Assembly (NCBI GenBank): GCA_934555895.1
Contig: CAKTFH010000001.1
Location: forward strand, 1 to 64,000
Length of the DNA: 64,000 nt
DNA from: an uncultured Muribaculaceae bacterium
GTDB taxonomy: Bacteria; Bacteroidota; Bacteroidia; Bacteroidales; Muribaculaceae
Direction of reading: 5' to 3'
The stretch's first letter is position 1, and each line of letters starts with the position of its first letter. Both the position numbers and the translations under genes were made by a program. The notes beneath the pieces were generated by a model. It was not told the DNA's origin and ran no database searches. It was given only the letters and a program-made list of their open reading frames with translations. Of this stretch, positions 45,460 to 58,822 are shown in pieces.

Positions 45460-48330
45460 TCAGCGGACAGCTTTTTTTGAAGTGACCAGATGCCACAGCT
45501 CGCGCACCCACACCACAAGCGACGAGGCCGCCACTATGATGAGGAAATCGCAAGTACCCGATGGGTTGAAGCCCCATGAGGAGGTGTGCAGCATCGGCTC
45601 CACATTGAAGAACAGGTAGGCTATCTCGGTGATGAAGAGCTGACCCGCCACTATCACAACCACAATGGTCCAGAAACCGTTGCTCATACGCAGCCGGAAC
45701 AGGCTCTCGCCGGTGGCGAAGGCGCGGGTGTTGAACATATACCAGAAGTGGGTCCACACGAATATCGAGAAGAGTAGCGTGGCCTCATAACCAGTCATGA
45801 GCGACTCGGCGCCAGGGTGCACATGCAGCATCTGCACCAGAGATGTGATGTCGGCATGGGTGAACAGCCAGTAAAAACCAAAGGTTATGGCGAAAAAGAG
45901 CGTACCCACGCCGAACAGCTCCCAGCACATCGGTCCGGTAAGGATGGAGGCGCGGCGGTTGCGCGGCTTCTCGTTCATCACGCTGCGCGACGGCGGCAGC
46001 GACGCAAGAGCCATCGCGCCGAATGTGTCCATAATCAGATTCACCCACAGCATCTGAGTGACCGACAGCGGCGACTCGGAGCCTATGAAAGAGCCGAAAA
46101 GTACCAGCAGGCAGGCAGCCACATTGACTGTGAGCTGAAACAGCAGGAAGCGCTGTATGTTGCGGTAGAGCGAGCGTCCCCACATCACGGCACGACCTAT
46201 CGAGGAGAACGAATTGTCGATGATGGTGATGTCCGAAGCCTCCTTGGCCACCGAGGTGCCGTCGCCCATCGACAGGCCCACATGGGCGGCCTTGAGCGCC
46301 GGAGCATCGTTGGTGCCGTCGCCGGTGACGGCCACCACCTCGCCGCGCTTCTGCAGGGCCTCCACAAGGCGTTTCTTATCAAGCGGACGCGCACGGGCTA
46401 TAATCTTAAGGTCGCCGACACGCTCACGCAATTGCTCGTCGCTCAGAGCGGCCACTTCGGGACCGGTGATGATGTTGCGGTCGGAGTCGGTGGCATCGTT
46501 CCACAGCCCTATCTGACGGCCGATCTCCTTGGCTGTACCGGGAGTATCGCCTGTCACAATCTTCACTTTCACACCGGCATCGAGCACCTCTCGCACAGCG
46601 TCGGGCACATCGCCGCGCACAGGGTCGGAGATGGCCACCACACCAAGGAAATGCAGGCCGCCGGCCACCACACGCCCGTCGGCTATGGCCGCTTCGCCAT
46701 CGGAGAGCTCCTGCCAGGCGAAACCGAGGGTACGCATGGCCTGCGCCTGATAGCCGAGCAACATGGCATCGAGTTCGGAACGGGTCACACCATCGGTGTG
46801 GGCGCACATGCCGAACACTATTTCCGGAGCACCCTTCACATAAAGGATGCGACGCCCCGAGGCCGACTTCACCACGGTAGCCATATATTTCCGCTCTGTG
46901 GTGAAGGGTAGTTCCTCAAGACGCACGACACCATCGCGAAGCTTAGAGTAATCTGCACCGCGGGTGTCGAGCCATAGCAACAGGGCGCCCTCGGTGGGAT
47001 TGCCGAGCACCGTAGGCGTTGCGCCGGTGCGGTCGAGCTGCGCGGTGGAGTTCACCGCTATGCCTTCATAGAGAACCTCGTCGGAGGGGTTGCCGAAGAA
47101 ATCGGCATGCGCTACCTGCATGCGGTTCTGGGTGAGAGTGCCGGTCTTATCGGTGCAAATCACGGTGGTAGCGCCCATGGTCTCGCAGGCGTGCATCTTA
47201 CGCACCAGATTATTGGTCTTGAGCATGCGGCTCATGCTGTAGGCCAGCGAGAGGGTCACGGCCATAGGGAGTCCCTCGGGCACAGCCACTACAATAAGAG
47301 TGACGGCCACCATAAGCGTCTGCAAGGTGTGGCTCAGGAGGTCCGACCACTCTGCGGTGCCTGCGTCGGCAGGATGCAGCAGGGCGAATGAACCGCAAAC
47401 CGTACCAATGAAAAACGCCGTAAAAATCACGACCGATGCGATGCAGGCTTTTTTGCTCCATCCGCCGAATTTCTTTATCACAAGCAGGAAAAACAGCGCC
47501 ACAGGCACCACTATGGCCCATGCCTGCCAGTTGCTCCAGCCGAGGAATCCCACAAGCTGTGCGGCTATCACCAGACCGGCCACCACATAACTGCCATTGG
47601 CTATGAGACGCCCCAGGCCTGAGAGCTGCTCGTCGAGAGGAGTCTTCACGGAGTCGTCGATCTGTGCCTCCTTGTAGACCTTGCCGGCCTCGGTGGAGTC
47701 GCCCACGGCAGTAACACGCATTACGCCGTGCCCCTCCATCACCTTGGTACCGCGCAGCACATGGTCAGATGGATATGTGGCCTCAGAGTCGAAATGTTCA
47801 GGGTCGGTGGTCTTGACGCAGATTGGTTCGCCGGTAAGCGTGCTTTCATCGACGCTCAGTGTCACAGCGTCGAGCAGCACACCGTCGGCAGGAATCTCGT
47901 CGCCGGTAGATATGGTCACGATGTCATCCACCACCACATCGCGGCGAGGTACGGTGGTCATGCCACCGCTGCGAAGCACCTCCACCGGCTCGTCATCGTT
48001 CACACGGTTGAGAATCTTGAAAGCCTCGTTGGCCTTCTGCTCGAATATGAAAGCGAGACCCGTGGCAAGCAATATGGCTATGATTATACCCGCCGGTTCA
48101 AAAAACACCTGCCATCCGTGGCCCGCGACATAATATTCATAGCAGGCAATACCTATCGAGAGGGCGCCCGCTATAAGCAGAATCATTATAAGCGGGTCGG
48201 AGAATTTCTCTAAAAACAGTTTCCACCAGGGCTCGCGGGCCGGTGGCGTGAGCACGTTGGCGCCATGCTCGCGACGGCTCTCGACCACCTGCTCAGGGGT
48301 GAGGCCGCCGTAGCGATGAGATTGTGACAT
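45460..48330 (-). CDS. calcium-translocating P-type ATPase (PMCA type)
   Basis: This 956-residue P2-type ATPase pumps cations, probably Ca2+, out of the cytoplasm. It shows an N-terminal cation ATPase domain, the STLTGEP actuator loop, the phosphorylation site DKTGTLTQNRM, the nucleotide-binding KGAPEIVF, the hinge VTGDGTNDAPALK, and a C-terminal transmembrane domain with NLIMDTFGAMALA and helix-6-like WVNLIMD residues typical of the PMCA group. About ten hydrophobic segments are present. It lies between a small membrane-anchored protein (33 bp upstream) and glycerate kinase. Confidence 0.93.
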   Translation of the reverse strand: MSQSHRYGGLTPEQVVESRREHGANVLTPPAREPWWKLFLEKFSDPLIMILLIAGALSIGIACYEYYVAGHGWQVFFEPAGIIIAILLATGLAFIFEQKANEAFKILNRVNDDEPVEVLRSGGMTTVPRRDVVVDDIVTISTGDEIPADGVLLDAVTLSVDESTLTGEPICVKTTDPEHFDSEATYPSDHVLRGTKVMEGHGVMRVTAVGDSTEAGKVYKEAQIDDSVKTPLDEQLSGLGRLIANGSYVVAGLVIAAQLVGFLGWSNWQAWAIVVPVALFFLLVIKKFGGWSKKACIASVVIFTAFFIGTVCGSFALLHPADAGTAEWSDLLSHTLQTLMVAVTLIVVAVPEGLPMAVTLSLAYSMSRMLKTNNLVRKMHACETMGATTVICTDKTGTLTQNRMQVAHADFFGNPSDEVLYEGIAVNSTAQLDRTGATPTVLGNPTEGALLLWLDTRGADYSKLRDGVVRLEELPFTTERKYMATVVKSASGRRILYVKGAPEIVFGMCAHTDGVTRSELDAMLLGYQAQAMRTLGFAWQELSDGEAAIADGRVVAGGLHFLGVVAISDPVRGDVPDAVREVLDAGVKVKIVTGDTPGTAKEIGRQIGLWNDATDSDRNIITGPEVAALSDEQLRERVGDLKIIARARPLDKKRLVEALQKRGEVVAVTGDGTNDAPALKAAHVGLSMGDGTSVAKEASDITIIDNSFSSIGRAVMWGRSLYRNIQRFLLFQLTVNVAACLLVLFGSFIGSESPLSVTQMLWVNLIMDTFGAMALASLPPSRSVMNEKPRNRRASILTGPMCWELFGVGTLFFAITFGFYWLFTHADITSLVQMLHVHPGAESLMTGYEATLLFSIFVWTHFWYMFNTRAFATGESLFRLRMSNGFWTIVVVIVAGQLFITEIAYLFFNVEPMLHTSSWGFNPSGTCDFLIIVAASSLVVWVRELWHLVTSKKAVR

Positions 48331-48363
48331 AGTTGCAGTTTTTGATTTGACTGGGATTACCGG

Positions 48364-48804
48364 TTATTTTTCAAGAGCGGGAAGGTTGGTGAGAGCGCGT
48401 GTGCTTTCGAGGATGGGGAGGTTGGTCTCGGTGGGCACATAAATCACGGTTTTATCGCTTAGGTCTGACTGCTGGCGCACCCACAGATACTGGATATAGG
48501 TAGGTGTGATGCTGCCGTTCTCAATACGTATAGCCTCGGCGGCACCTTTGGCGCGCTCCACCTCTGCCTGAGCGTTAAGCTTTTCGGCCTCGAGATTAGC
48601 CTTAGCCTCCTCGATTTTGATTTTCCGGTTCTGCTCAGCCTTTGCAAACTCGGCCTTGCCCTCCATCTCCTGCGACCATACATTATACCAGGGGCGGATA
48701 AATGCGAGGCTTACAATCAGCACCACGACTATTACCACCGACCATACAACACCTTTAATCATCCCGGGAGTGAAGTTCACACTATTGTTTGAATTGTTGT
48801 ACAT
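48364..48804 (-). CDS. small membrane-anchored protein resembling the C-terminal part of SPFH/prohibitin proteins
   Basis: The 146-residue protein has one N-terminal transmembrane segment (VVWSVVIVVVLIVSLAFI, about 19-36), an Ala/Glu/Lys-rich coiled coil (about 50-100, with KIEEAKANLEAEKLNAQAEV) and a tail (TPTYIQYLWVRQQSDLSDKT) like the end of stomatin/prohibitin-type proteins. The band-7 (SPFH) domain itself is absent, so it looks like a reduced relative rather than a protease-associated scaffold. It is the first gene of a likely operon with the calcium ATPase and glycerate kinase. The function is unknown. Confidence 0.72.
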   Translation of the reverse strand: MYNNSNNSVNFTPGMIKGVVWSVVIVVVLIVSLAFIRPWYNVWSQEMEGKAEFAKAEQNRKIKIEEAKANLEAEKLNAQAEVERAKGAAEAIRIENGSITPTYIQYLWVRQQSDLSDKTVIYVPTETNLPILESTRALTNLPALEK

Positions 48805-48841
48805 TTTTAATTTTTGAAATTAGCAGTTTGTTTGAGGTTCG

Positions 48842-48872
48842 CAAAATTACTTTTTTATGTGTGAACATGCAA
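48842..48872 (-). promoter_or_regulatory. promoter of the SPFH-like gene, calcium ATPase and glycerate kinase operon
   Basis: On the minus strand TTG (complement 48870-48872), 20 bp, TAATTTTG (complement 48842-48849) fit the consensus, 38 bp before the ATG. Confidence 0.6.
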
Positions 48873-48893
48873 TGTGTTTCAAAAGTTTTATCG

Positions 48894-48901
48894 TAACTTT
48901 G
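48894..48901 (+). promoter_or_regulatory. -7 element of the DUF2851 gene
   Basis: TAACTTTG lies 38 bp before ATG 48940. It supports that start rather than the longer frame beginning at 48874. Confidence 0.55.
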
Positions 48902-48939
48902 AGGCAACCCACAGTCATAAACTCTTTAACCGCACGCCA

Positions 48940-50232
48940 ATGGAACAGCTCTTGCAATTTGTGTGGCAACACCGGCTTGCCCTCAGGCCGGGAATGACCA
49001 CTGTCGACGGGCGCAGTGTGACCGTGGTGAACCAGGGTAAGCTCAACACCGACGCCGGGCCCGACTTTTTCAATGCCACCGTGATAATCGATGGGCAGAC
49101 CTGGGCAGGCAATGTGGAGATTCATGTGAAGGCCTCCGACTGGCTGCGTCACCATCACGACGCCGACCCGGCCTACGATTCGGTTATACTTCATGTAGTG
49201 CAGCAGAGCGATATGCAGATATGCCGCCGCGACGGCTCGCCTATCCCGCAGATTACACTCAACTGCACCCCGGAAGCCGCACAGCGTTGCAACCTGCTGC
49301 TGATGGAGGCCGCAAGAGCGCTCCCCTGCCGCAACATAATCGCCGCACTCCCGTCAATCTACCGCACCGACTGGCTCACGGCCCTGGCCATGGAACGCCT
49401 CTACCGCAAGGCCGAGCGCGTGCTCGCCATTGTAAAGCAGACCGCCGGACACTGGGAGGGGGCCGCCTACGTGACCCTGGCGCGCGGACTCGGGTTCGGG
49501 CTCAACAGCGAGCCGTTCGAACTCCTGGCAAAACAGATGCCGCTGGCGTTTCTCAACAAACATGCCGACGAGCTCACATCGGTGGAGGCGCTGCTGTTCG
49601 GCGGCGCGGGGCTCATTCCTCCTCCAAAGCCAGACGGAAGCAACGGCGCGGCCTATGCCGCCCACCTGCGCGAGGAATATGTTTTTTTAGCGAATAAGTT
49701 TTCACTCAGTCCGGTGAAGCCGGCATGGAAGATGGCCCGCACGAGGCCACAGAACTTTCCTCACCGCCGTGTGGCGGCGCTTGCCGAAATGATTCACCGA
49801 GGATTTTATCTCATAGGTAGGCTCACCGACTGCCGCACAATCGACGACATGCGTCAGCTTTTCAACATCGAACTGCAGGGATTCTGGTCAACCCACTACA
49901 CTTTTTCCGATCAGGCACAGGTATGCCGCTCACGCGCACTGAGCCGCGACTCAATCGACACACTGCTCATAAATGTGGCCATACCGCTGCTGTTCGCCCG
50001 CTACATGTCGCGCGACGACGATACCGGCATGGAGGGCGCCGTGGAGCTCCTGAGGCAGCTCGGCGCCGAAAACAACGCCATAACGCGCCTCTTCGCCGAG
50101 GCCGGGCTGAAAGCCGACGACGCCTTTGCATCGCAGGCGCTCATAGAGCTGCGACGCGAGTACTGTGAGAAAAACAAATGCATTTATTGTCGCTTCGGCC
50201 ATCGCATGCTATCGGCCGAAATAGCGCATTGA
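48940..50232 (+). CDS. DUF2851 family protein
   Basis: The 430-residue product matches the DUF2851 family, present across Bacteroidota and of unknown function. Characteristic blocks are MEQLLQFVWQHRL at the start, VNQGKLNTDAGPDFFNATV, WAGNVEIHVKASDWLRHHH and YDSVILHVV (about residues 40-100), and a C-terminal CIYCRFGHRML with two cysteines. There is no signal peptide or membrane segment, so it is cytoplasmic. I start at ATG 48940 because the promoter lies within the longer frame. It is convergent with tatC. Confidence 0.85.
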   Translation: MEQLLQFVWQHRLALRPGMTTVDGRSVTVVNQGKLNTDAGPDFFNATVIIDGQTWAGNVEIHVKASDWLRHHHDADPAYDSVILHVVQQSDMQICRRDGSPIPQITLNCTPEAAQRCNLLLMEAARALPCRNIIAALPSIYRTDWLTALAMERLYRKAERVLAIVKQTAGHWEGAAYVTLARGLGFGLNSEPFELLAKQMPLAFLNKHADELTSVEALLFGGAGLIPPPKPDGSNGAAYAAHLREEYVFLANKFSLSPVKPAWKMARTRPQNFPHRRVAALAEMIHRGFYLIGRLTDCRTIDDMRQLFNIELQGFWSTHYTFSDQAQVCRSRALSRDSIDTLLINVAIPLLFARYMSRDDDTGMEGAVELLRQLGAENNAITRLFAEAGLKADDAFASQALIELRREYCEKNKCIYCRFGHRMLSAEIAH

Positions 50233-50255
50233 ACCGTGCGCCCGGGCATCACGCT

Positions 50256-51107
50256 TCAGGCAGGCAGCGCGGTATCGGCGGCTGCATCGCTCTCGTCCTC
50301 CTCGTCGGGAGCCTTGCTCCGTGCGAGCAATATCGAGAGCTCATAGAGCATATAGATGGGCACAAACACTACCATGAGTGTGAAGGGGTCGCCGGTAGGT
50401 GTGATAATGGCCGAAAGCACCAACAGTCCTGTAACAGCCTGGCGGCGGTACTGACGCAGGAAGTCGGAGGTTACGAGACCCATGCGCGAGAGTATCCAAA
50501 CCACAAACGGCAGCTCGAACACTATTCCCATCACGAACACAAGCATCAGGAAGTTGTCGATATAGGAATTGAGCGAAATCATGTTGGTGATGTCGGTGCT
50601 CAGCTCATATTCGGCCAGGAATCGGAAAGTAAAGGGGAAGACCACCAGATAGCCTACCGCACAGCCGAGATAGAACATCGGCACGCCGAACAGCAGCAGC
50701 GCCACCACGCTGCGGCGCTCTTTGTCGTAGAGTGCCGGACGGATGAAGAGCCACAACTCGGTCACAAGATAGGGGAAAAGCAGCAGGAACGCCAGGCAGA
50801 ATGAGGTGCTGATGTGGGTTGTGAACTGCGAGGCGAGTTTCACATTGATGATATTTACCTTGAAATCGGCCCCGAAATCGGGGAAAAACGAGCCATAGTG
50901 GCCCAGACCGCCCAGCCAGCGGTAAAGGATGAAATCAGATGAGGTGGGTCCGAGGATGAACGGATTGAAGATGTGTGGCATAGCCGCGAAGCATATGCCC
51001 ACAAGCACAAGATACACGATGACAAGCCGCATCAGCACCCAGCGGAGCACCTCGAGATGCGACCAGAATGTCATTTCAGTTTCCTTGGTTTCCTTGATTT
51101 CCGACAT
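50256..51107 (-). CDS. tatC: twin-arginine translocase subunit TatC
   Basis: TatC is the polytopic receptor that binds twin-arginine signals of folded export substrates. The 283-residue protein has the N-terminal TFWSHLEVLRWVLMR motif and six hydrophobic segments (for example LVIVYLVLVGICFAAMP, FCLAFLLLFPYLVTELW, FLMLVFVMGIVFELPFVVWIL). The C-terminal tail is acidic (KAPDEEDESDAAAD). It is the last gene of the minus-strand cluster that holds tatA and a Tat-dependent oxidoreductase. No tatB is seen, so a minimal TatA-TatC system is likely. Confidence 0.95.
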   Translation of the reverse strand: MSEIKETKETEMTFWSHLEVLRWVLMRLVIVYLVLVGICFAAMPHIFNPFILGPTSSDFILYRWLGGLGHYGSFFPDFGADFKVNIINVKLASQFTTHISTSFCLAFLLLFPYLVTELWLFIRPALYDKERRSVVALLLFGVPMFYLGCAVGYLVVFPFTFRFLAEYELSTDITNMISLNSYIDNFLMLVFVMGIVFELPFVVWILSRMGLVTSDFLRQYRRQAVTGLLVLSAIITPTGDPFTLMVVFVPIYMLYELSILLARSKAPDEEDESDAAADTALPA

Positions 51108-51160
51108 TATCGTAAAAAGTTCTAAAATTATATTGCAGTGATTGAGAAAGAGAAAGGGAG

Positions 51161-51198
51161 GGCATGAAGCCGTACCGCTGTCGGCACGGCTTCATGCC
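51161..51198 (-). terminator. hairpin between the DUF1080 genes and tatC
   Basis: GGCATGAAGCCGT (51161-51173) pairs perfectly with 51186-51198. On the minus strand it is not followed by a clean T-run, so partial termination or RNA stabilisation is possible. Confidence 0.55.
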
Positions 51199-51210
51199 TT
51201 TAAAGTGTTA

Positions 51211-52110
51211 TCAATTGAGAGGTTTGATACGTACGTTGCGGTACCATACATCGTCGCCATGGTCCTGGAAACCGATATAGCCCTTGTGCTCGTCGCCGCC
51301 CATGTTGTTGAGCAAGTCGAAAGCATAGGGGAAGTCGCCGCCCTTGCGGAACTTCGAATCCTGAAGCATCTGGGTCCATTTCGGAGTCCAGAGGTGGTAT
51401 TCAACCACGTTGGCGCCGTTCTGACCATGGATTACAGTACCTTTGTAGACCTTGATGCTGCCCTTGTTCCACTCTCCGTAGGGGTTGGCGTTCTGGGGCT
51501 TGGCGGGAATCATGTCGTAGAGCGAAGCGCTCTGGCGGTTGCCGTCCACGCCGAGACCGGCATCGATATGGTTGGCATTGTCGAGCACCTGATATTCCGA
51601 TGCCGACTGCCAGATGGGCAGATATTCGTCCTTGCCGTCGGCACCGGGGGCCATCACCTCCTGAGCGAGATAGAACACGCCTGAGTTGCCTCCCTTCGAT
51701 ACCTTGTATTCGAACTCGAGATCGAAGTTATCGAACTTGTTGGCGAAGATAAGGTCGCCTCCACCTTCGGCCTGGGCCTCGCCTGTGCCCGAGCCTTTGA
51801 GATGGATAGCTCCATCCTCAACATTCCAGCTTGCGGGAGCCTCGGCCTGACCGTAACCGCGCCAGCCGTTGAGGGTCTTTCCGTCGAAGAGTGTAATCCA
51901 GCCGTCGGCGTCGGGAGTGTAGGCTGTCATGTCCACATTGGGGCCGTCGACAACTTTGGCGGGGGGAAGCTCGTCGGTTGCAGCCCCCTCCTGATTGCAG
52001 ATGCAGTCGGGGCAACCGCACTGGCAGCCGCAGTTGCATTTCTTATTGTTATTGCAGGCCATGAGCAAAGGAAGAGCTGCGGCCACCAACATTATGTTTT
52101 TTATCTTCAT
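51211..52110 (-). CDS. DUF1080 (3-keto-disaccharide hydrolase family) lipoprotein with Cys-rich N-terminus
   Basis: The 299-residue lipoprotein (lipobox LMAC, Cys19) carries seven further cysteines within residues 25-38 in mostly C-x-C spacing. The DUF1080/PF06439 concanavalin-like domain follows (about 65-299), with ITLFDGKTLNGWRGYG, WNVEDGAIHLKG, GNSGVFYLAQEV, ASEYQVLDNANH and GYIGFQDHGDDVWYRNVRI. Family members hydrolyse or eliminate 3-keto-glycosides. It lies 45 bp after a second DUF1080 gene, with which it shares SASLYDMIPAKPQN, inside the Tat-oxidoreductase cluster. Envelope location is predicted. Confidence 0.88.
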   Translation of the reverse strand: MKIKNIMLVAAALPLLMACNNNKKCNCGCQCGCPDCICNQEGAATDELPPAKVVDGPNVDMTAYTPDADGWITLFDGKTLNGWRGYGQAEAPASWNVEDGAIHLKGSGTGEAQAEGGGDLIFANKFDNFDLEFEYKVSKGGNSGVFYLAQEVMAPGADGKDEYLPIWQSASEYQVLDNANHIDAGLGVDGNRQSASLYDMIPAKPQNANPYGEWNKGSIKVYKGTVIHGQNGANVVEYHLWTPKWTQMLQDSKFRKGGDFPYAFDLLNNMGGDEHKGYIGFQDHGDDVWYRNVRIKPLN

Positions 52111-52155
52111 CGCGTTGTTTTTAGATAATTGATTGATACTTTACAGATAGCTGAA

Positions 52156-52965
52156 TTATTTCAGTTCCCTGACCGTGATATTGCGATACTGCACACGGTC
52201 GCCGTGGTCCTGCAGACCGATGTAACCCATGTGGTTCTTGCCGCCGCAGTTGTTGAGCAGGGCGAAAGCGGCAGGCCAGTTTTTCTCGGAAAATTTCGAG
52301 GCCTGCAGCAGTGCGGTCCACTCGGGGGTGTTGAGGGTGTATTCCACCACTTTCTCACCGTTCTGCCAGTGCTCCACTTTATTGTCTTTCACCACAATGC
52401 GCGCATGATTCCATTCACCGTAGGGCTTGGAATTCTGGGGCTTGGCGGGAATCATGTCGTAGAGTGATGCGCTCTTGCGGTTGCCGTCCACACCGAGCTT
52501 GGCGTCGGGATGGTTCTCGTTGTCGAGCACCTGGTATTCGGGAGCTGATATATATATGGGCTGGAAAAACTTCTCTCCCTTCTCGTTCACGCCCTGCACT
52601 TCCTGAGCGTAGAAGAAGATACCGGAGTTGGAGCCTTTGTCGACTTTCCAGTCGAGGTCGAGCACGAAGTTGCCGAACGGATGCGCGAAGATGATGTCGC
52701 CACCCTCTTTGTTGGAGGGTGTATATGTGAGAGCACCCTCTTCAATCGACCATTTTGCGGGGAGATGGTCTTTGCCGTAGCCGCGCCAGCCGTCGGTTGA
52801 AGTGCCGTCGAAGAGCACCAGAGCGCCCCCTTCCTGGTTTACGGTGACGGGGGTCTGGGGATAGCCTGCTGTGTTGTGCAGCAGAAGAGTAGCCTGCTTA
52901 TGGCCGCAGGAGGTGGCGAGAGCCGCCACGGCAATTGCTGCTGCCGACAGGAATATCTTGTTCAT
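52156..52965 (-). CDS. DUF1080 (3-keto-disaccharide hydrolase family) lipoprotein
   Basis: This 269-residue lipoprotein (lipobox ATSC, Cys20) is a paralogue of the next gene downstream. The PF06439 domain shows LVLFDGTSTDGWRGYG, WSIEEGALTYTPSN, GSNSGIFFYAQEV, APEYQVLDNENH, KSASLYDMIPAKPQN and YIGLQDHGDRVQYRNITVREL. It lacks the cysteine cluster of its paralogue, so the two are probably not redundant. It follows the Tat-exported oxidoreductase after 148 bp, a gap that contains GC-rich inverted repeats (53048-53055 with 53079-53086). Confidence 0.88.
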   Translation of the reverse strand: MNKIFLSAAAIAVAALATSCGHKQATLLLHNTAGYPQTPVTVNQEGGALVLFDGTSTDGWRGYGKDHLPAKWSIEEGALTYTPSNKEGGDIIFAHPFGNFVLDLDWKVDKGSNSGIFFYAQEVQGVNEKGEKFFQPIYISAPEYQVLDNENHPDAKLGVDGNRKSASLYDMIPAKPQNSKPYGEWNHARIVVKDNKVEHWQNGEKVVEYTLNTPEWTALLQASKFSEKNWPAAFALLNNCGGKNHMGYIGLQDHGDRVQYRNITVRELK

Positions 52966-53113
52966 TTTCAGTTTTAGCGTTTTATGATTGGTTGTATATG
53001 GTGTGTGGCTTCGGGTGACATTGCGGTGCCACCCTTCTAAAGCGAGCCAGCCGGCAACCGGCGGAGAAGCTGTCTCGCGCCGGCTGCCGTCTGTGTTATC
53101 GCGTCATTCAGTT

Positions 53114-54592
53114 TCAGGCGGGCATATCAGGCAGCGACCAGCCGGGACGGTAGGTGTGCTTGATAAGCTCCTGGGCGTAGGCCTGTGCGTTCACGGGATC
53201 GGTCCAGGTCTTGTCGAAAGTCGGGTGACCGTTGTGAATCTTGAAGCCGTCTTTGATTACGGTGCGGAGTGTCTCGTCGGGACCGATGTTGGTGAAGGCC
53301 ATATTCTCGCCGTCCCACTCGAGCACCTTGTTGAGACCCTGCAGACGCACTGCGAGCACGCCCATTACAACCATTTCATTGAACGGTCCGGCTTCGCTGA
53401 AATCGGAGTTACACGGAGTGCGGCTGCTCTTGTCCTCCTTGCAGGCACGCACCCAGTCCATCTCATGGCTTACGGGCACGCGGCGTGCTACCTTGGGAGC
53501 GTTGGGCACACGGCCCGAGAGAAGCCAGGGCTGCTGACCGTAGCATCCGCAGATGAGGGTGTCTTTTGTGCCGTGGAAGATGGTGAGGCCACCGCCTGCC
53601 TGCATGAGCTGACGGCCCTGGGGGAAGCCTTCGGGACGGTCGGGCATCATGCCGCCGTCGTACCAGTGCACCTCTACCTCGGGCATAGCCACCTTGGGCA
53701 TATTGTCGCGGGCAGGGAATATCATCTTCACGTGCTGTGCCTGAGGAGCGCATGCATTAAGCAGGAGTGTCGACGAGCCTTCTACTTTTGTGGGGTAGCC
53801 GAGCTTGAGGGCCTTGAAGGGCTGGTGCATGATGTGGCATGCCATATCACCGAGGGCACCTGTACCGTAATCCCACCATCCGCGCCAGTTCCAGGGCTGA
53901 TAGATGCTATTGTAGGGATTGAGCTTGGCAGGACCGGTGAAGAGGTCCCAGTTGAGGTTCTTGGGTATCTTGTCGACATTTTCAGGCACGTTCAGACCCT
54001 GGGGCCAGATGGGGCGGTCGGTGGCGCATTCCACTTTATAGACATCGCCGATCTCACCGTTCCATATCCAGTCGCACACGGTGGCTGTGCCATCCCACGA
54101 CGCACCCTGATTACCCATCTGTGTAGCCACACCTGTTTTTTCGGCGAGCTTTGTGAGCAGACGGCTTTCATACACCGAGTGGGTAAGAGGCTTCTGGCAA
54201 TAAACATGCTTGCCGAGCTCCATGGCGTTCGCTGTCACCAGACAGTGGGTGTGGTCGGCTGTAGCACAGATTACGGCATCGATGTCATTGTTCATCTCGT
54301 CGTACATCTTACGGTAGTCCCAGTAACGCTTTGCGTTGGGGAATTCGTCGAACACGCCTTTGGCATAATCCCAGTTCACATCGCAGAGTGCCACGATGTT
54401 CTCTGTATCCTTCACTGCATTGATGTTGGCATGACCCATGCCTCCGATACCCACCACTGCGATATTAAGTTTATCGCTTGGAGCGGTGTGACCGAACGAC
54501 TTGCCGAGCACTGTGTTGGGCACCACAGCGAGGCCCAAGGCGCCGAGAGCGCCTGTTTTGAGGAACTGTCTCCTCGAGATTTCTCCAGACAT
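53114..54592 (-). CDS. Tat-exported Gfo/Idh/MocA family oxidoreductase
   Basis: The 492-residue protein begins with a twin-arginine signal (SRRQFLK at about residues 6-12, then a weakly hydrophobic stretch to VLG), so it should be exported folded with its cofactor. The Rossmann fold starts at NIAVVGIGGMGHANINA, and the family K-P motif is HVYCQKPLTHSVYES. The C-terminal dehydrogenase half has W/N-rich segments (PWNWRGWWDYGTGALGDMA, CHIMHQPFKAL). A role in oxidising a sugar or glycoside in the periplasm is inferred from the neighbouring DUF1080 genes. I start at ATG 54592, since the Tat signal begins there. Confidence 0.9.
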   Translation of the reverse strand: MSGEISRRQFLKTGALGALGLAVVPNTVLGKSFGHTAPSDKLNIAVVGIGGMGHANINAVKDTENIVALCDVNWDYAKGVFDEFPNAKRYWDYRKMYDEMNNDIDAVICATADHTHCLVTANAMELGKHVYCQKPLTHSVYESRLLTKLAEKTGVATQMGNQGASWDGTATVCDWIWNGEIGDVYKVECATDRPIWPQGLNVPENVDKIPKNLNWDLFTGPAKLNPYNSIYQPWNWRGWWDYGTGALGDMACHIMHQPFKALKLGYPTKVEGSSTLLLNACAPQAQHVKMIFPARDNMPKVAMPEVEVHWYDGGMMPDRPEGFPQGRQLMQAGGGLTIFHGTKDTLICGCYGQQPWLLSGRVPNAPKVARRVPVSHEMDWVRACKEDKSSRTPCNSDFSEAGPFNEMVVMGVLAVRLQGLNKVLEWDGENMAFTNIGPDETLRTVIKDGFKIHNGHPTFDKTWTDPVNAQAYAQELIKHTYRPGWSLPDMPA

Positions 54593-54645
54593 GATAATGT
54601 TAGATTTATTGGTAAGAAAACATGTTTGTTTCAAGCCATAAAAGT

Positions 54646-54667
54646 GCTGTGCGGCAAGCCGCACAGC
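54646..54667 (-). terminator. hairpin between tatA and the Tat-exported oxidoreductase
   Basis: GCTGTGCGGC and GCCGCACAGC (54646-54655 with 54658-54667) form a perfect 10-bp repeat with almost no loop. On the minus strand ACTTTTATGG follows, so it may be a partial terminator after tatA. Confidence 0.55.
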
Positions 54668-54672
54668 TATGC

Positions 54673-54885
54673 TTATTTCTCAGTTTTTTCAGGTTCCTTG
54701 CCGGCTTTCTCGATGTCACTTTCGATATTGTTGACACCCTCCTTGAAGTTGCGGATACCCTTGCCGATGCCGCGCATCAGCTCGGGAATCTTCTTGCCTC
54801 CGAAAAGCAGAAGCACTATGAGGGCGATTACAATTATTTCGCCTGTTCCGAGATTGCCGAGAAACAATAAGATGTTGCTGTTCAT
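54673..54885 (-). CDS. tatA: twin-arginine translocase subunit TatA
   Basis: TatA forms the translocation pore of the Tat system. The 70-residue protein has a short N-terminus, a single transmembrane helix (EIIVIALIVLLLFGG, about 16-30), the hinge GGKKIPELMRGIGKGI and an amphipathic helix followed by a charged tail (EKAGKEPEKTEK). It lies 80 bp upstream of the Tat-dependent oxidoreductase gene and about 3.5 kb upstream of tatC, so the two translocase genes bracket the presumed substrate. Confidence 0.95.
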   Translation of the reverse strand: MNSNILLFLGNLGTGEIIVIALIVLLLFGGKKIPELMRGIGKGIRNFKEGVNNIESDIEKAGKEPEKTEK

Positions 54886-54963
54886 ATTATTCTAAATTAT
54901 GTATTACTTGATGTTTATTTGCAGTGAGTGTAGTGAATCGCGAAGAGAGCCGTGGGGCGACCC

Positions 54964-56043
54964 TCACCGCATGGTCTGCTTGCGCAGGAGGCCGTAGCCG
55001 TCGGTGGCGTGGGCGCGGCGGTAGTGTATCTGCTCAAGCTCCTCGGCGGTGCCGGCCACGGGCATGTCGTGGGTCCAGGCGTCGTCGAGACATTCCCAGG
55101 CGAACTCCGAGGCCACGGCGGCGTCACGCATCGACGGCAGACGCGGGTCGCGCTCGCCCTTCTCTATGGAGTCGGCCATCACATCGATGAGCTTGTCGAT
55201 GTTCTTGCCGCCGTAGGGGCGCTCGATGCGCTCGGTGCGGTTCACGCCATGTATCTCCACCACGGCGGTCTTGAAGTCGTGGCTCATGCGGGCTATGCCT
55301 TTCGAGCCTATGACATCCATATATGAGTTGTGGGTCTGCACTTTCGAGAGCTGGCCGTAGTTGTGTCCCTGAGTGATGTCAAACACCACACCGTTTTCAA
55401 AAGTGCCGTGAGCCTGAAGCCACCAGGGGTCTTTGTATTCCCACATGCGCACGGCCTGCGCGTGTTTTGTCTTATATTCCGAGTGTGCCAGCCAGCGGGC
55501 CACATCCACATAGTGCATGCCGCAGTCGTGGAATGCCGGGCCTTCGGCCTCGTGACCTTCACCCGGCGACAACCCCGGGGTCATGTGGCATATGCGCAAT
55601 ATGGCGAGGTCGCCGAGCTCGCCCGAGCGGATGCAGTCATCGAGCTCCTTGAGATACCACGAATTGCGTATGTAAAGATTCACGGCCGCAATAATCGGAG
55701 CGTTTTCCACCACCTTTACCGTTTCCCATTCATTAGCAGGGGTATCGCCGATAGGCTTTTCGGCAATTATATGTTTACCTGCGGCCACAGCCTTGCGTAT
55801 CTGCGATGGACGCGAGTCGGCCAGTGCCGACAGCACTACAAGGTCTATGCCAGGGTCGTTGAAAATCTCGTCTTCATCAGTTACTATACGGGCCATTGGA
55901 GCCCGGCGACGGATGTCGTCGTGAGCAGCTTCATTAAGCTCGCATATCGCCGATACTTCCCATCTTTCGCTTTTCAGAAATTCGTTCAGATAGAAACCAC
56001 CCATTCGACCGAGCCCTATTATTCCTGCTTTAAAAGTTTTCAT
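54964..56043 (-). CDS. cytoplasmic Gfo/Idh/MocA family oxidoreductase
   Basis: This 359-residue NAD(P)-dependent oxidoreductase has a Rossmann motif AGIIGLGRMGGFYL near the N-terminus and the family motif HIIAEKPIGDTPAN (about residue 95). A conserved FHDCGMHYVDVARWL segment resembles the GxxxDxxxxxxH active-site region. No signal is present, so it acts in the cytoplasm, unlike the Tat-exported relative two genes downstream. It is the first gene of the cluster. I use ATG 56043 rather than an in-frame TTG at 56049. The substrate, possibly a 3-keto sugar, is inferred from context. Confidence 0.88.
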   Translation of the reverse strand: MKTFKAGIIGLGRMGGFYLNEFLKSERWEVSAICELNEAAHDDIRRRAPMARIVTDEDEIFNDPGIDLVVLSALADSRPSQIRKAVAAGKHIIAEKPIGDTPANEWETVKVVENAPIIAAVNLYIRNSWYLKELDDCIRSGELGDLAILRICHMTPGLSPGEGHEAEGPAFHDCGMHYVDVARWLAHSEYKTKHAQAVRMWEYKDPWWLQAHGTFENGVVFDITQGHNYGQLSKVQTHNSYMDVIGSKGIARMSHDFKTAVVEIHGVNRTERIERPYGGKNIDKLIDVMADSIEKGERDPRLPSMRDAAVASEFAWECLDDAWTHDMPVAGTAEELEQIHYRRAHATDGYGLLRKQTMR

Positions 56044-56167
56044 TGGCAAGTGATCTGCCGCCTTCCGACGGCAGAAATGTGATTCTCAGTTGGTTGTACA
56101 CTTCAGTTCATGCTTCGGAGCGGCCTGTGGCAACCGCAGACCGAAGCACCCCCTATTTTTGGTGTTT

Positions 56168-56175
56168 CAAAGTTA
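56168..56175 (-). promoter_or_regulatory. -7 element of the oxidoreductase/Tat/DUF1080 cluster
   Basis: The complement reads TAACTTTG. It lies about 125 bp upstream of ATG 56043. No clean TTTG is visible at the -33 distance. Confidence 0.5.
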
Positions 56176-56313
56176 CAGTTATTTTTTATTCGGAAGCCTT
56201 GAACCAAACCATTTTTAACTATTTTTAACTGCCGATTCACCATCTTCGGCGCCGGCTTTCCTCCCGCGCCGCTCCGCACGGGCGTAGCATACGCATGCAT
56301 CAGGCATTTACAA

Positions 56314-56345
56314 TTTGCATATGTGAATAAAAAATGGTAACTTTG
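56314..56345 (+). promoter_or_regulatory. promoter of pnp
   Basis: TTTG (56314-56317), 20 bp, TAACTTTG (56338-56345) match the Bacteroidota consensus exactly, 36 bp before the ATG. Confidence 0.8.
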
Positions 56346-56381
56346 CGCGATTTATAGACGTTATAACATTTTAGAATACCA

Positions 56382-58637
56382 ATGAACCCTATCAAAAAGA
56401 CCATCACCCTGCCCGATGGCCGCGAGATAACTCTCGAGACCGGCAAACTCGCCAAGCAGGCTGATGGAGCAGTGGAGCTCCGCATGGGCAACACCATGCT
56501 GCTGGCCACTATCGTTTCCGCCAAAGAGGCGGGAGAGGGCGTGGATTTCATGCCCCTTACCGTAGATTATAAGGAGAAATTCTCTTCGGCAGGCCGCTTC
56601 CCCGGCGGTTTCCTCAAACGCGAAGGAAGAGCCTCCGATTACGAGATACTCACATCGCGCCTCGTTGACCGCGTGATGCGTCCTCTCTTCCCCGACAACT
56701 ATCATGCTGAGACATTCGTGAACATCACCATGTTCTCGGCCGACGGCGTGGAGATGCCCGACAGCCTCGCAGGCCTCGCAGCATCGGCAGCCATCACCTG
56801 CTCCGACATCCCGTTCAACGGCCCTATCTCGGAAGTGCGTGTGGCCCGCATCGACGGCAAATTTGTTATCAATCCCACCTACGAGCAGCTTGAGAAAGCC
56901 GACATGGAACTCATGGTAGGCGCTACCGCTGACAACATCATGATGGTGGAAGGCGAGATGAACGAGGTGTCGGAGACCGACCTTCTCGAAGCACTCAAGT
57001 TCGCCCACGAAGAAATAAAGAAACACTGCGCCGTGCAGCTCGAGCTTGCAGAGGCCGCAGGCAAAACCGTAAAACGCGAATACTGCCACGAAGTAAACGA
57101 CGAAGACCTACGCAAGGATGTGCACGACAAGTGCTACGACAAGGCCTACGCCGTGGCCAAAGCCGGCAGCGCCGACAAGCACTGGCGCCAGGACTCGTTC
57201 GACGCCATCTGCGACGAATATATCGAAAGCCTCCCCGAAGAGGAGCGCGACGAGAAAGCACCCCTGGTGAAGCGCTACTACCACGATGTGGAGCGCGAAG
57301 CCGTGCGCCGCTGCATCCTCGACGAAGGCATCCGTCTCGACGGCCGCAAAACCACCGAAATCCGTCCCATCTGGTGTGAGACCGACTACATCCCCGGCCC
57401 TCACGGATCGGCAGTCTTCACCCGCGGCGAGACACAGAGCCTCTCCACCGTCACCCTCGGCACCAAGCTCGACGAGAAGATTCTCGACGATGTGCTCAAC
57501 CAGGGCCGCGAACGCTTCCTGCTCCATTACAACTTCCCCCCCTTCTCCACAGGCGAGGCACGCCCAACCCGTGGCGTCGGACGCCGCGAAATCGGTCACG
57601 GCAATCTCGCACACCGCGCCCTCAAGCGCATGCTCCCCGATGATTTCCCCTACGTTTGCCGCGTAGTGAGCGACATACTCGAGAGCAACGGTTCATCGTC
57701 GATGGCCACCGTATGCGCCGGCACACTCGCACTACTTGACGCAGGCGTGAAACTCAAACGCCCCGTCAGCGGCATCGCCATGGGCCTTATCACCGACAAC
57801 GCCACCGGCAAATACGCCATACTCTCCGACATCCTCGGCGACGAGGACCACCTCGGCGACATGGACTTCAAGGTAACCGGCACACGCAACGGCATCACCG
57901 CCACACAGATGGATATCAAGTGCGACGGCCTCAGCTACGAGGTGCTCGAGAAAGCCCTCAACCAGGCACGCGACGGACGCATGCACATACTCGACATCAT
58001 CGACCAGACCATCCCCGCTCCCCGCGAGGACTACAAGCCCCATGTGCCCCGCATCGTCACAATGCTCATACCCAAAGACCTCATCGGCGCCGTCATTGGC
58101 CCGGGCGGAAAAATCATTCAGGGCATTCAGGAGGCATCGGGCGCCACAGTCAGCATCGACGAGATACCCGAAGGCGGCTACATCGAAGTGGCAGCACCCA
58201 ACCGCGACTCTATCGACAAGGCCCTCGAGATGATCAACGCCATCGTAGAGCTTCCCGAGGAGGGCAAGGTTTACACCGGCAAGGTACAGACCATCCAGGA
58301 CTTCGGTGCCTTCATCGAGTTCATGCCCAACCGCGACGGCCTGCTCCACATTTCAGAAATTGCATGGGAGCGTCTCCCCGACATGGCCGCATCCGGCCTC
58401 AAGGAAGGCGACGAAGTGACCGTGAAACTCATCGAAATTGACAAGAAGACCGGCAAATACCGTCTGTCGATGCGTGCCCTGCAGCCTAAACCAGAAGGCT
58501 ACGTGGAGCCCGAACCCCGTCAGCGCGGACCGCGTCGCGAAGGCGGAGACCGTCCCCGTCGCGAGGGTGCTGACCGCGGTGACCGTCGTCCCCGCCGTGA
58601 AGGCGACCGTGGTGACCGCCGTCCCCGTCACGAATAA
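56382..58637 (+). CDS. pnp: polyribonucleotide nucleotidyltransferase
   Basis: PNPase degrades RNA phosphorolytically from the 3' end. The 751-residue protein has two RNase PH-like domains (the second with [15 protein letters not shown] and [21 protein letters not shown]), a KH domain with [15 protein letters not shown] (about 568-582), an S1 domain (from about 626, [15 protein letters not shown]) and, unusually, a roughly 35-residue Arg/Gly/Asp/Pro-rich tail from about residue 715 ([16 protein letters not shown] repeats). The tail probably adds RNA affinity or is disordered. It is monocistronic, with its own promoter and terminator. Confidence 0.97.
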
Positions 58638-58691
58638 TCCACGTCACAAACGACACACTGGCGGCCCCGCCGCCTCTGACCCCCATAGCGA

Positions 58692-58743
58692 AGCCGCGTC
58701 TCCCAGCCCACCAGGCTGCAGAGACGCGGCTCCCCTTTTTTTA
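58692..58743 (+). terminator. terminator of pnp
   Basis: AGCCGCGTCTC (58692-58702) pairs perfectly with 58721-58731, and an eight-T run follows CCCC. Confidence 0.9.
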
Positions 58744-58822
58744 TGCTTAGACCATAAACACATTTAAAAAACACAATCATCCAAATTCTATAATCAAAAG
58801 TTTTTGTCCCGGCGCGGCGGCT

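Follow-up and report, generated by a model that had tools for sequence, protein, structure and literature searches.

The first 64,000 nucleotides of contig CAKTFH010000001.1 (assembly GCA_934555895.1, from an uncultured Muribaculaceae bacterium; the whole stretch is called the window below) carry, between positions 50256 and 56043, a row of six minus-strand genes in which components of the twin-arginine translocation (Tat) system stand among putative enzymes of a 3-keto pathway for glycosides. Assigned from open reading frames together with Pfam and NCBIfam profiles, they encode, in this order, a cytoplasmic Gfo/Idh/MocA oxidoreductase (GfoCyt), TatA, a second Gfo/Idh/MocA enzyme with a Tat signal, two DUF1080 proteins (DUF1080a and DUF1080b) and TatC. 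An earlier reading of the same DNA, made from the letters alone (the sequence-only reading), had described this arrangement, and all six open reading frames are indeed present in that order and on that strand.

The window's TatA and TatC both score above the curated cut-offs and make up a TatAC translocase. TatA (54673-54885; 70 residues), encoded between the two Gfo genes, reaches 58.9 with PF02416 (TatA_B_E; cut-off 21) and 65.9 with TIGR01411 (tatAE; 53.9), while TatC (50256-51107; 283 residues) reaches 203.7 with PF00902 (cut-off 25.1) and 153.4 with TIGR00945 (tatC; 132.7). The exported Gfo enzyme (53114-54592) belongs to the BT_2158 family of glycoside 3-dehydrogenases (NF058561, 863.2 bits, cut-off 750). 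It also scores 63.6 bits with Pfam's GFO_IDH_MocA profile, whose cut-off of 24 is passed by GfoCyt as well, and its close PDB relatives are 8tdf (E 1.3e-234) and 8tdh (E 2.4e-228). Its N-terminus, MSGEISRRQFLK, contains the twin-arginine motif SRRQFLK, and the Tat signal noticed in the sequence-only reading passes the cut-offs of both PF10518 (TAT_signal, 23.0 against 22.7) and TIGR01409 (TAT_signal_seq, 20.1 against 16.7). When all six frames of the window were scanned for arginine pairs at most 30 codons from a start with a hydrophobic stretch to follow, 10 matches came up; on visual inspection only that at 54574 (minus strand) resembles a Tat signal, in agreement with the earlier remark that the window holds no other. 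GfoCyt (54964-56043; PF01408, 57.2 bits) starts at the ATG at 56043, the listed open reading frame beginning at an upstream TTG (56049), and no signal peptide was seen in it. Its nearest family is BT_2159_fam (NF058563, "disaccharide 3-dehydrogenase"; 593.4 bits, the next family reaching 106.4), and no PDB relative was found for it at E 1e-20.

Both DUF1080 proteins are predicted lipoproteins of the 3-keto-glycoside lyase/hydratase family PF06439, for which "hydrolase" is Pfam's label. DUF1080a (52156-52965) scores 171.1 bits and DUF1080b (51211-52110) 160.9 bits (cut-off 26.8), their lipoboxes, identified by eye, read ATSC and LMAC, and close PDB relatives of both include 4hxc, 8rr2 and 8tda, among others. 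A tree of 47 proteins places them in separate supported sets, one of seven copies from tandem pairs, DUF1080a among them (99*), and one of eight rows that includes DUF1080b (99*), each set holding one copy of the tandem pairs from six related loci (L160 and L162-L166; loci and genomes carry our own L and G numbers). Set against 25 single-copy relatives, the window copies deviate in 25 (DUF1080a) and 14 (DUF1080b) of the 130 near-invariant columns, and several of these deviations are common to the tandem counterparts. Both copies retain 46 near-invariant polar or aromatic residues, including the histidine of QDHGD. By our offset arithmetic this histidine would correspond to H275 of a Bacteroides thetaiotaomicron lyase, which we infer to be the DUF1080 protein BT2157 and whose hydration activity is lost in the H275N variant (PMC13273386). 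We read DUF1080a and DUF1080b as putative specialised lyases or hydratases.

DUF1080b stands out by a cysteine-rich segment (residues ~19-40) with repeated CxC directly behind the lipobox, which is also found in L151, L160, L162 and L163 of its subclade. At least two CxC motifs occur within the first 75 residues in 93 of its 120 nearest relatives, these being the best 120 of 4730 and biased toward the cysteine-rich trait. The segment is possibly a metal-binding or disulfide-rich tether. In three tandem loci (L164-L166) the second DUF1080 copy lies inside a frame of 559-561 residues that begins like a TIM-barrel lipoprotein, and in L165 Pfam confirms an AP_endonuc_2 domain followed by DUF1080; such fusion frames suggest joint action of both lyase types. 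In this phylum, the export signal of surface lipoproteins is generally a stretch of acidic residues that follows the lipidated cysteine. Neither DUF1080 protein has one, which by this rule suggests a periplasmic location.

The known counterpart of the locus is the B. thetaiotaomicron operon BT2159-BT2156. Nasseri et al. 2024 (alternative broad-specificity glycan breakdown) and Kastner et al. 2024 (non-hydrolytic glucoside pathway) reportedly describe oxidation, elimination, hydration and reduction by enzymes of these families, and the near structural relatives of the window proteins, 8tda, 8tdf, 8tdh and 8rr2, presumably come from those papers. BT2156 we take to be the TIM-barrel protein of the operon, and we know of no tat genes in it. 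The operon is described as extending from BT2159 to BT2156, and glucosinolate conversion in vitro required BT2158 together with either BT2156 or BT2157 (review PMC12385236). BT2158 has been described as a periplasmic glycoside 3-dehydrogenase required for disaccharide and glucosinolate metabolism (PMC11300592). BT2157 has been named a 3-ketotrehalose hydrolase, and for a Caulobacter DUF1080 protein a role as 3'-ketolactose hydrolase has been proposed (PMC9007349).

The window shares with this operon the exported dehydrogenase family, above cut-off, a DUF1080 protein, present here twice and with its conserved core retained, and an enzyme that is BT_2159-like but scores below that family's cut-off. 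It differs in its interleaved tatA and tatC, in the second DUF1080 gene and in having no TIM-barrel gene: a profile built from relatives found no AP_endonuc_2 lipoprotein in the 64 kb at E 1e-5. That either BT2156 or BT2157 suffices beside BT2158 in vitro, as the review has it, fits a second DUF1080 protein replacing the one in the TIM-barrel slot. The 3-keto pathway proposed in the sequence-only reading is upheld by the score of the exported enzyme against the BT_2158 family, and we put at about three in four the probability that the locus serves non-hydrolytic (3-keto) glycoside use, is of the BT2159-BT2156 kind and carries, interleaved, the tatA and tatC of a general Tat system. TatA and TatC have been reported for seven Bacteroides strains (PMC6281302), and a limited search of the open-licence literature, a weak negative, brought up no mention of tat genes within a 3-keto locus of this sort. 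Pathway and exporter are known; it is their packaging that is unusual, and it is recurrent.

The recurrence is seen in relatives. With the window's TatC 54 loci were fetched, a sample drawn with the window's own peptides that leans to its lineage, and gene orders were assigned by profiles built from the first matches and run over these and later loci. The interleaved order, TatA - dehydrogenase - TatC, is found in 18 loci; without the window itself and L055, which duplicates L002, these represent 16 distinct relatives. A TIM-barrel gene follows DUF1080 in every one of the 16, where the window has its second DUF1080 gene; the TIM-barrel protein was AP_endonuc_2 (PF01261) in the two loci scanned (L001 and L008). 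GfoCyt is present in 13 of the 16, L013, L014 and L017 being without it, and in L150 it is split across two frames. In a second arrangement (L046, L069, L080, L154) the Tat-signal Gfo, DUF1080 and TIM-barrel genes come first and TatA-TatC follow, directly in L080, behind an ApbE gene in L046 and after a further interval in L069 and L154. A third order, TatA-TatC-GfoCyt-GfoTat-DUF1080 (GfoTat being the Tat-signal enzyme), occurs in L151. In L206 (553-4822) a paralogous Tat-signal Gfo, DUF1080 and an ApbE gene stand directly before TatA and TatC on one strand. The linkage is thus recurrent, in three arrangements with the BT_2158 family and one with a paralogue, and because the order recurs in related genomes the arrangement is more than chance. 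L008 has the pathway group on one strand and the Tat group on the other, separated by further genes, and L169 and L189 hold GfoCyt-GfoTat-DUF1080-TIM loci free of Tat genes. Three genomes (G002, G001 and G004; loci L135, L139 and L145) also possess, away from TatC, a second cluster, in which a DUF1080-like protein comes after a pair of Tat-signal Gfo enzymes; here Pfam scans cover the Gfo pair of L135 and the final gene of both L135 and L145.

How widespread the linkage is was examined at two levels. Among 148 Bacteroidales genomes, TatC was above cut-off in 125 and BT_2158 in 35, and in four of these 35 (G002, G019, G030, G124) a single contig carries both, at most 10 kb apart. By our estimate, random placement within 10 kb in a genome of 2-4 Mb would give ~0.5-1%, so that 4 of 35 is above chance, though the genomes are related. 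Order-wide linkage as support for a dedicated Tat system is ruled out by the same low count. When 80 TatC regions were inspected (one place per genome, the first 80 of the 125 above-cut-off genomes, G046 and G099 skipped), the locus was present in three (L055, L069, L080), many stretches being cut by short contigs. Within the family of G002, which we take to be Muribaculaceae, 119 genomes yielded TatC in 107 and BT_2158 above cut-off in 14, and five of these 14 are linked within 10 kb (G002, G004, G162, G243, G250), a fraction that is inflated because the linkage in G002 and G004 was known beforehand. G259 is linked too, with its BT_2158 match cut by a contig end and under the cut-off, and in G234 the two genes are 18 kb apart. 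The linkage of Tat, DUF1080 and Gfo genes that the sequence-only reading had expected in relatives does recur, in a limited set of lineages.

Several points weigh against our assignment. The linkage is rare across Bacteroidales as a whole, though draft contigs can hide some cases, and two genomes (G084 and G092) have BT_2158 above cut-off and no TatC match, where gaps in the drafts are possible. GfoCyt falls short of the BT_2159_fam cut-off (593.4 against 650), and the Tat signal of the dehydrogenase is barely above that of Pfam. Strong hairpins in three spacers, described below, mean that the six genes may not form one transcript. As to the reference pathway, it is reported that BT2157 plus BT2158 in B. 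fragilis gave no glucosinolate conversion without BT2156 or BT2159 (PMC12385236) and that deletion of BT2157 or BT2158 left growth on raffinose-family sugars unimpaired (PMC11501099).

The sequence-only reading went further and saw a self-contained pathway with Tat dedicated to this one dehydrogenase. That the Tat genes interleave their client's gene, also in 16 relatives, speaks for such a view. In Bacillus subtilis phoD-tatAd-tatCd Tat genes likewise adjoin a client gene, and the translocase is nearly single-client; unlike that system, the window's relatives show several candidate clients and a single TatC. Predicted clients were collected in six relatives with linked Tat genes, and each has 3-11 of them: 11 in G001 (6 of them Gfo/Idh/MocA), 8 in G002 (5), 6 in G004 (3), 3 in G162 (1), 5 in G243 (2) and 3 in G250 (2). 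This gives 36 candidates in total, of which 19 are Gfo/Idh/MocA enzymes, the largest class, and 17 are not. All six have among their candidates an aldo/keto reductase with a Tat signal and 4Fe-4S domains (L170, L171, L173, L174, L175, L176), and the other 11 comprise five ferredoxin-like, two GH5 and two enolase-superfamily proteins, one DUF4434 protein and one weak metallo-beta-lactamase match (L142, marginally below the cut-off). The five ferredoxin-like proteins may not carry N-terminal signals, because their arginine pair is internal to a longer open frame; leaving them aside, Gfo/Idh/MocA enzymes make up 19 of 31. In G001, G004, G162 and G243 such a ferredoxin-like arginine-pair match lies ~0.65 kb from the aldo/keto reductase.

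These counts accept matches up to E 1, weak ones included, and were obtained with TIGR01409 and PF10518 for G001, G002 and G004 and with TIGR01409 only for G162, G243 and G250, so that the latter may be low; this includes G162, whose three candidates otherwise favour a dedicated exporter. Three matches with no start or a very short frame (G002 C25, G004 C8, G250 C31) and two judged by eye (G162 C14, NuoJ-type-like; G004 C9, Sec-like N-terminus) were dropped, and G003, with one match that looked ferredoxin-like, was excluded. In the 119-genome sample G002, G004, G162, G243, G250 and G259 have one TatC each (G001 lies outside it), and with several candidate clients to serve, the linked Tat must be the general system in those relatives. 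Moreover, TatC in Bacteroidales mostly occurs without BT_2158 (125 against 35 of 148 genomes). A translocase reserved for the one dehydrogenase is accordingly very improbable, and by analogy with its relatives the Tat system of the window presumably has other clients too.

Families, signals, gene order, linkage, trees and, for the relatives, candidate client lists were computed directly, while the reactions, the cofactor, the location and the co-regulation of the locus products are inferred. In the pathway we envisage, the BT_2158-type dehydrogenase would fold around a nicotinamide cofactor in the cytoplasm, leave through TatAC and, once in the periplasm, oxidise disaccharides or plant glycosides at C3 of their glucosyl unit. 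The two DUF1080 lipoproteins, diverged paralogues standing in for the DUF1080 plus TIM-barrel lyase of relatives, would then eliminate the aglycone and add water. Re-reduction of the resulting 3-keto-glucose would fall either to the exported enzyme, which would thereby close its own redox cycle, or to the BT_2159-like GfoCyt once the sugar has been taken up; imported keto sugars or disaccharides may be the substrates of GfoCyt. Oxidation, elimination, hydration and re-reduction would together restore the cofactor, so that the one carried along could suffice without further supply, and this would explain the use of Tat. The Zymomonas glucose-fructose oxidoreductase, a Gfo/Idh/MocA enzyme exported by Tat with its cofactor bound, runs such an internal redox cycle, with a different reaction. 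The Tat system would remain a general one with other clients, and its placement would keep the exporter beside one of the Gfo/Idh/MocA enzymes, the most numerous class of its clients.

Re-reduction by the exported enzyme is, in our view, at least as likely as re-reduction by GfoCyt. GfoCyt might instead be the main reductase, 3-keto-glucose or a keto-disaccharide being imported and reduced inside while the exported enzyme re-oxidises its cofactor otherwise. This alternative departs from the envisaged pathway in a single step, so that the odds of the two are not mutually exclusive. GfoCyt is evidently a pathway member, as it also occurs in Tat-free loci (L162, L169, L189). Its nearest family is named disaccharide 3-dehydrogenase, and BT2159 can reportedly substitute for BT2156 in conferring activity on B. 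fragilis (PMC12385236). Yet three of the 16 interleaved relatives (L013, L014 and L017) do without GfoCyt, and the six genes offer no obvious re-oxidation partner for the exported enzyme; as the main route, reduction by GfoCyt seems rather doubtful.

The history of the locus was approached with quick trees drawn with midpoint roots, in which L014, L013 and L151 sit on long branches. The TatC tree, from which 12 near-duplicate Parabacteroides/Prevotella rows and most order-level rows were omitted, unites 19 interleaved rows with L008, L012, L020 and L023 in a supported set of 23 (99*); L003 and L153, on cut contigs, are counted as interleaved here, the L003 contig holding DUF1080-TIM-TatC. This set, together with the rarity of the linkage in Bacteroidales, would suit a neutral co-location, in which the tat genes entered the locus once and were then inherited. 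Against it, a single clade of all linked TatCs is rejected (approximately unbiased (AU) test, p 3.66e-5), as is a strict clade of the interleaved TatCs alone (AU p 7.02e-4), with L008, L012, L020 and L023 among them. A supported split divides the dehydrogenases of interleaved loci, and a single clade of the 17 is likewise rejected (AU p 1.64e-4); either the layout outlasted an exchange of the dehydrogenase or it arose more than once. Three gene orders with BT_2158, and a fourth with the paralogous Tat-signal Gfo of L206, also speak against a single entry, and we regard a neutral origin as unlikely. In such quick, unrooted trees repeated gain looks the same as loss or exchange in place.

A further 20 TatCs from the family of G002 were hand-picked, about every fifth row down the score list, a selection that holds none of the known linked genomes. 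Not one of the 20 groups with the interleaved rows, in 19 of them TatA adjoins TatC within the stretch examined, and in the tree with these 20 the window, L001, L002, L003, L015, L152 and L153 form a supported set of their own (97*). This is the pattern expected if a cassette displaced the resident Tat pair. We tentatively raise the possibility of a portable, "self-exporting" cassette: the 3-keto locus would travel with its own TatA/TatC lineage, displace the usual pair as sole Tat in a few family members and have its dehydrogenase and lyase genes exchanged in place. Differential loss of an old Tat duplicate may account for the same pattern. One TatC that groups with Muribaculaceae-titled TatCs comes from a record titled as a Clostridiales metagenome-assembled genome (L039), probably a misassigned contig.

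In this locus a general protein exporter is bound up with a single metabolic pathway. A simple reason would be that the first enzyme of the pathway has to be exported already folded around its cofactor. If Tat genes do repeatedly settle by 3-keto dehydrogenases, the Tat system that a gut bacterium retains may depend in part on its carbon metabolism, and the chief Tat clients of these bacteria, so far little studied, would be Gfo/Idh/MocA enzymes.

The spacers between the genes hold pronounced minus-strand hairpins, their z-scores being calculated against dinucleotide shuffles. The spacer before tatC (51108-51210) folds into a 17-pair hairpin with one G-U pair (-34.6 kcal/mol, z -6.6), that between the dehydrogenase and DUF1080a (52966-53113) contains strong hairpins (-53.8 kcal/mol, z -5.5), and that between tatA and the dehydrogenase (54593-54672) has a 9-pair hairpin that is terminator-like in the scan (-22.8 kcal/mol, z -4.5). 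Eight relatives were tried for the pre-tatC hairpin, two of which (L006 and L150) have spacers too short and were left unfolded. The z-scores were -3.7 in L001, -2.9 in L004, -5.5 in L009 and -2.2 in L152; with -0.1 in L002 and -0.7 in L015, the hairpin is not upheld as a general conserved feature. Rfam gave no match in 48000-58800 at E 0.1. Terminator-like sites number 8 against 5.6 expected (standard deviation 2.4) and sigma-70-type promoter sites 7 against 4.0 (2.1). The motif TANNTTTG, which we take to be the promoter motif of this phylum, occurs 37 times in the window, more often than the 17.35 expected; one site lies upstream of the locus (56168-56175, minus strand), and no element was seen by eye upstream of it at the usual spacing. 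The locus is flanked upstream by a divergent PNPase-like gene (plus strand, from 56382) and downstream by a convergent plus-strand gene that ends at 50232.

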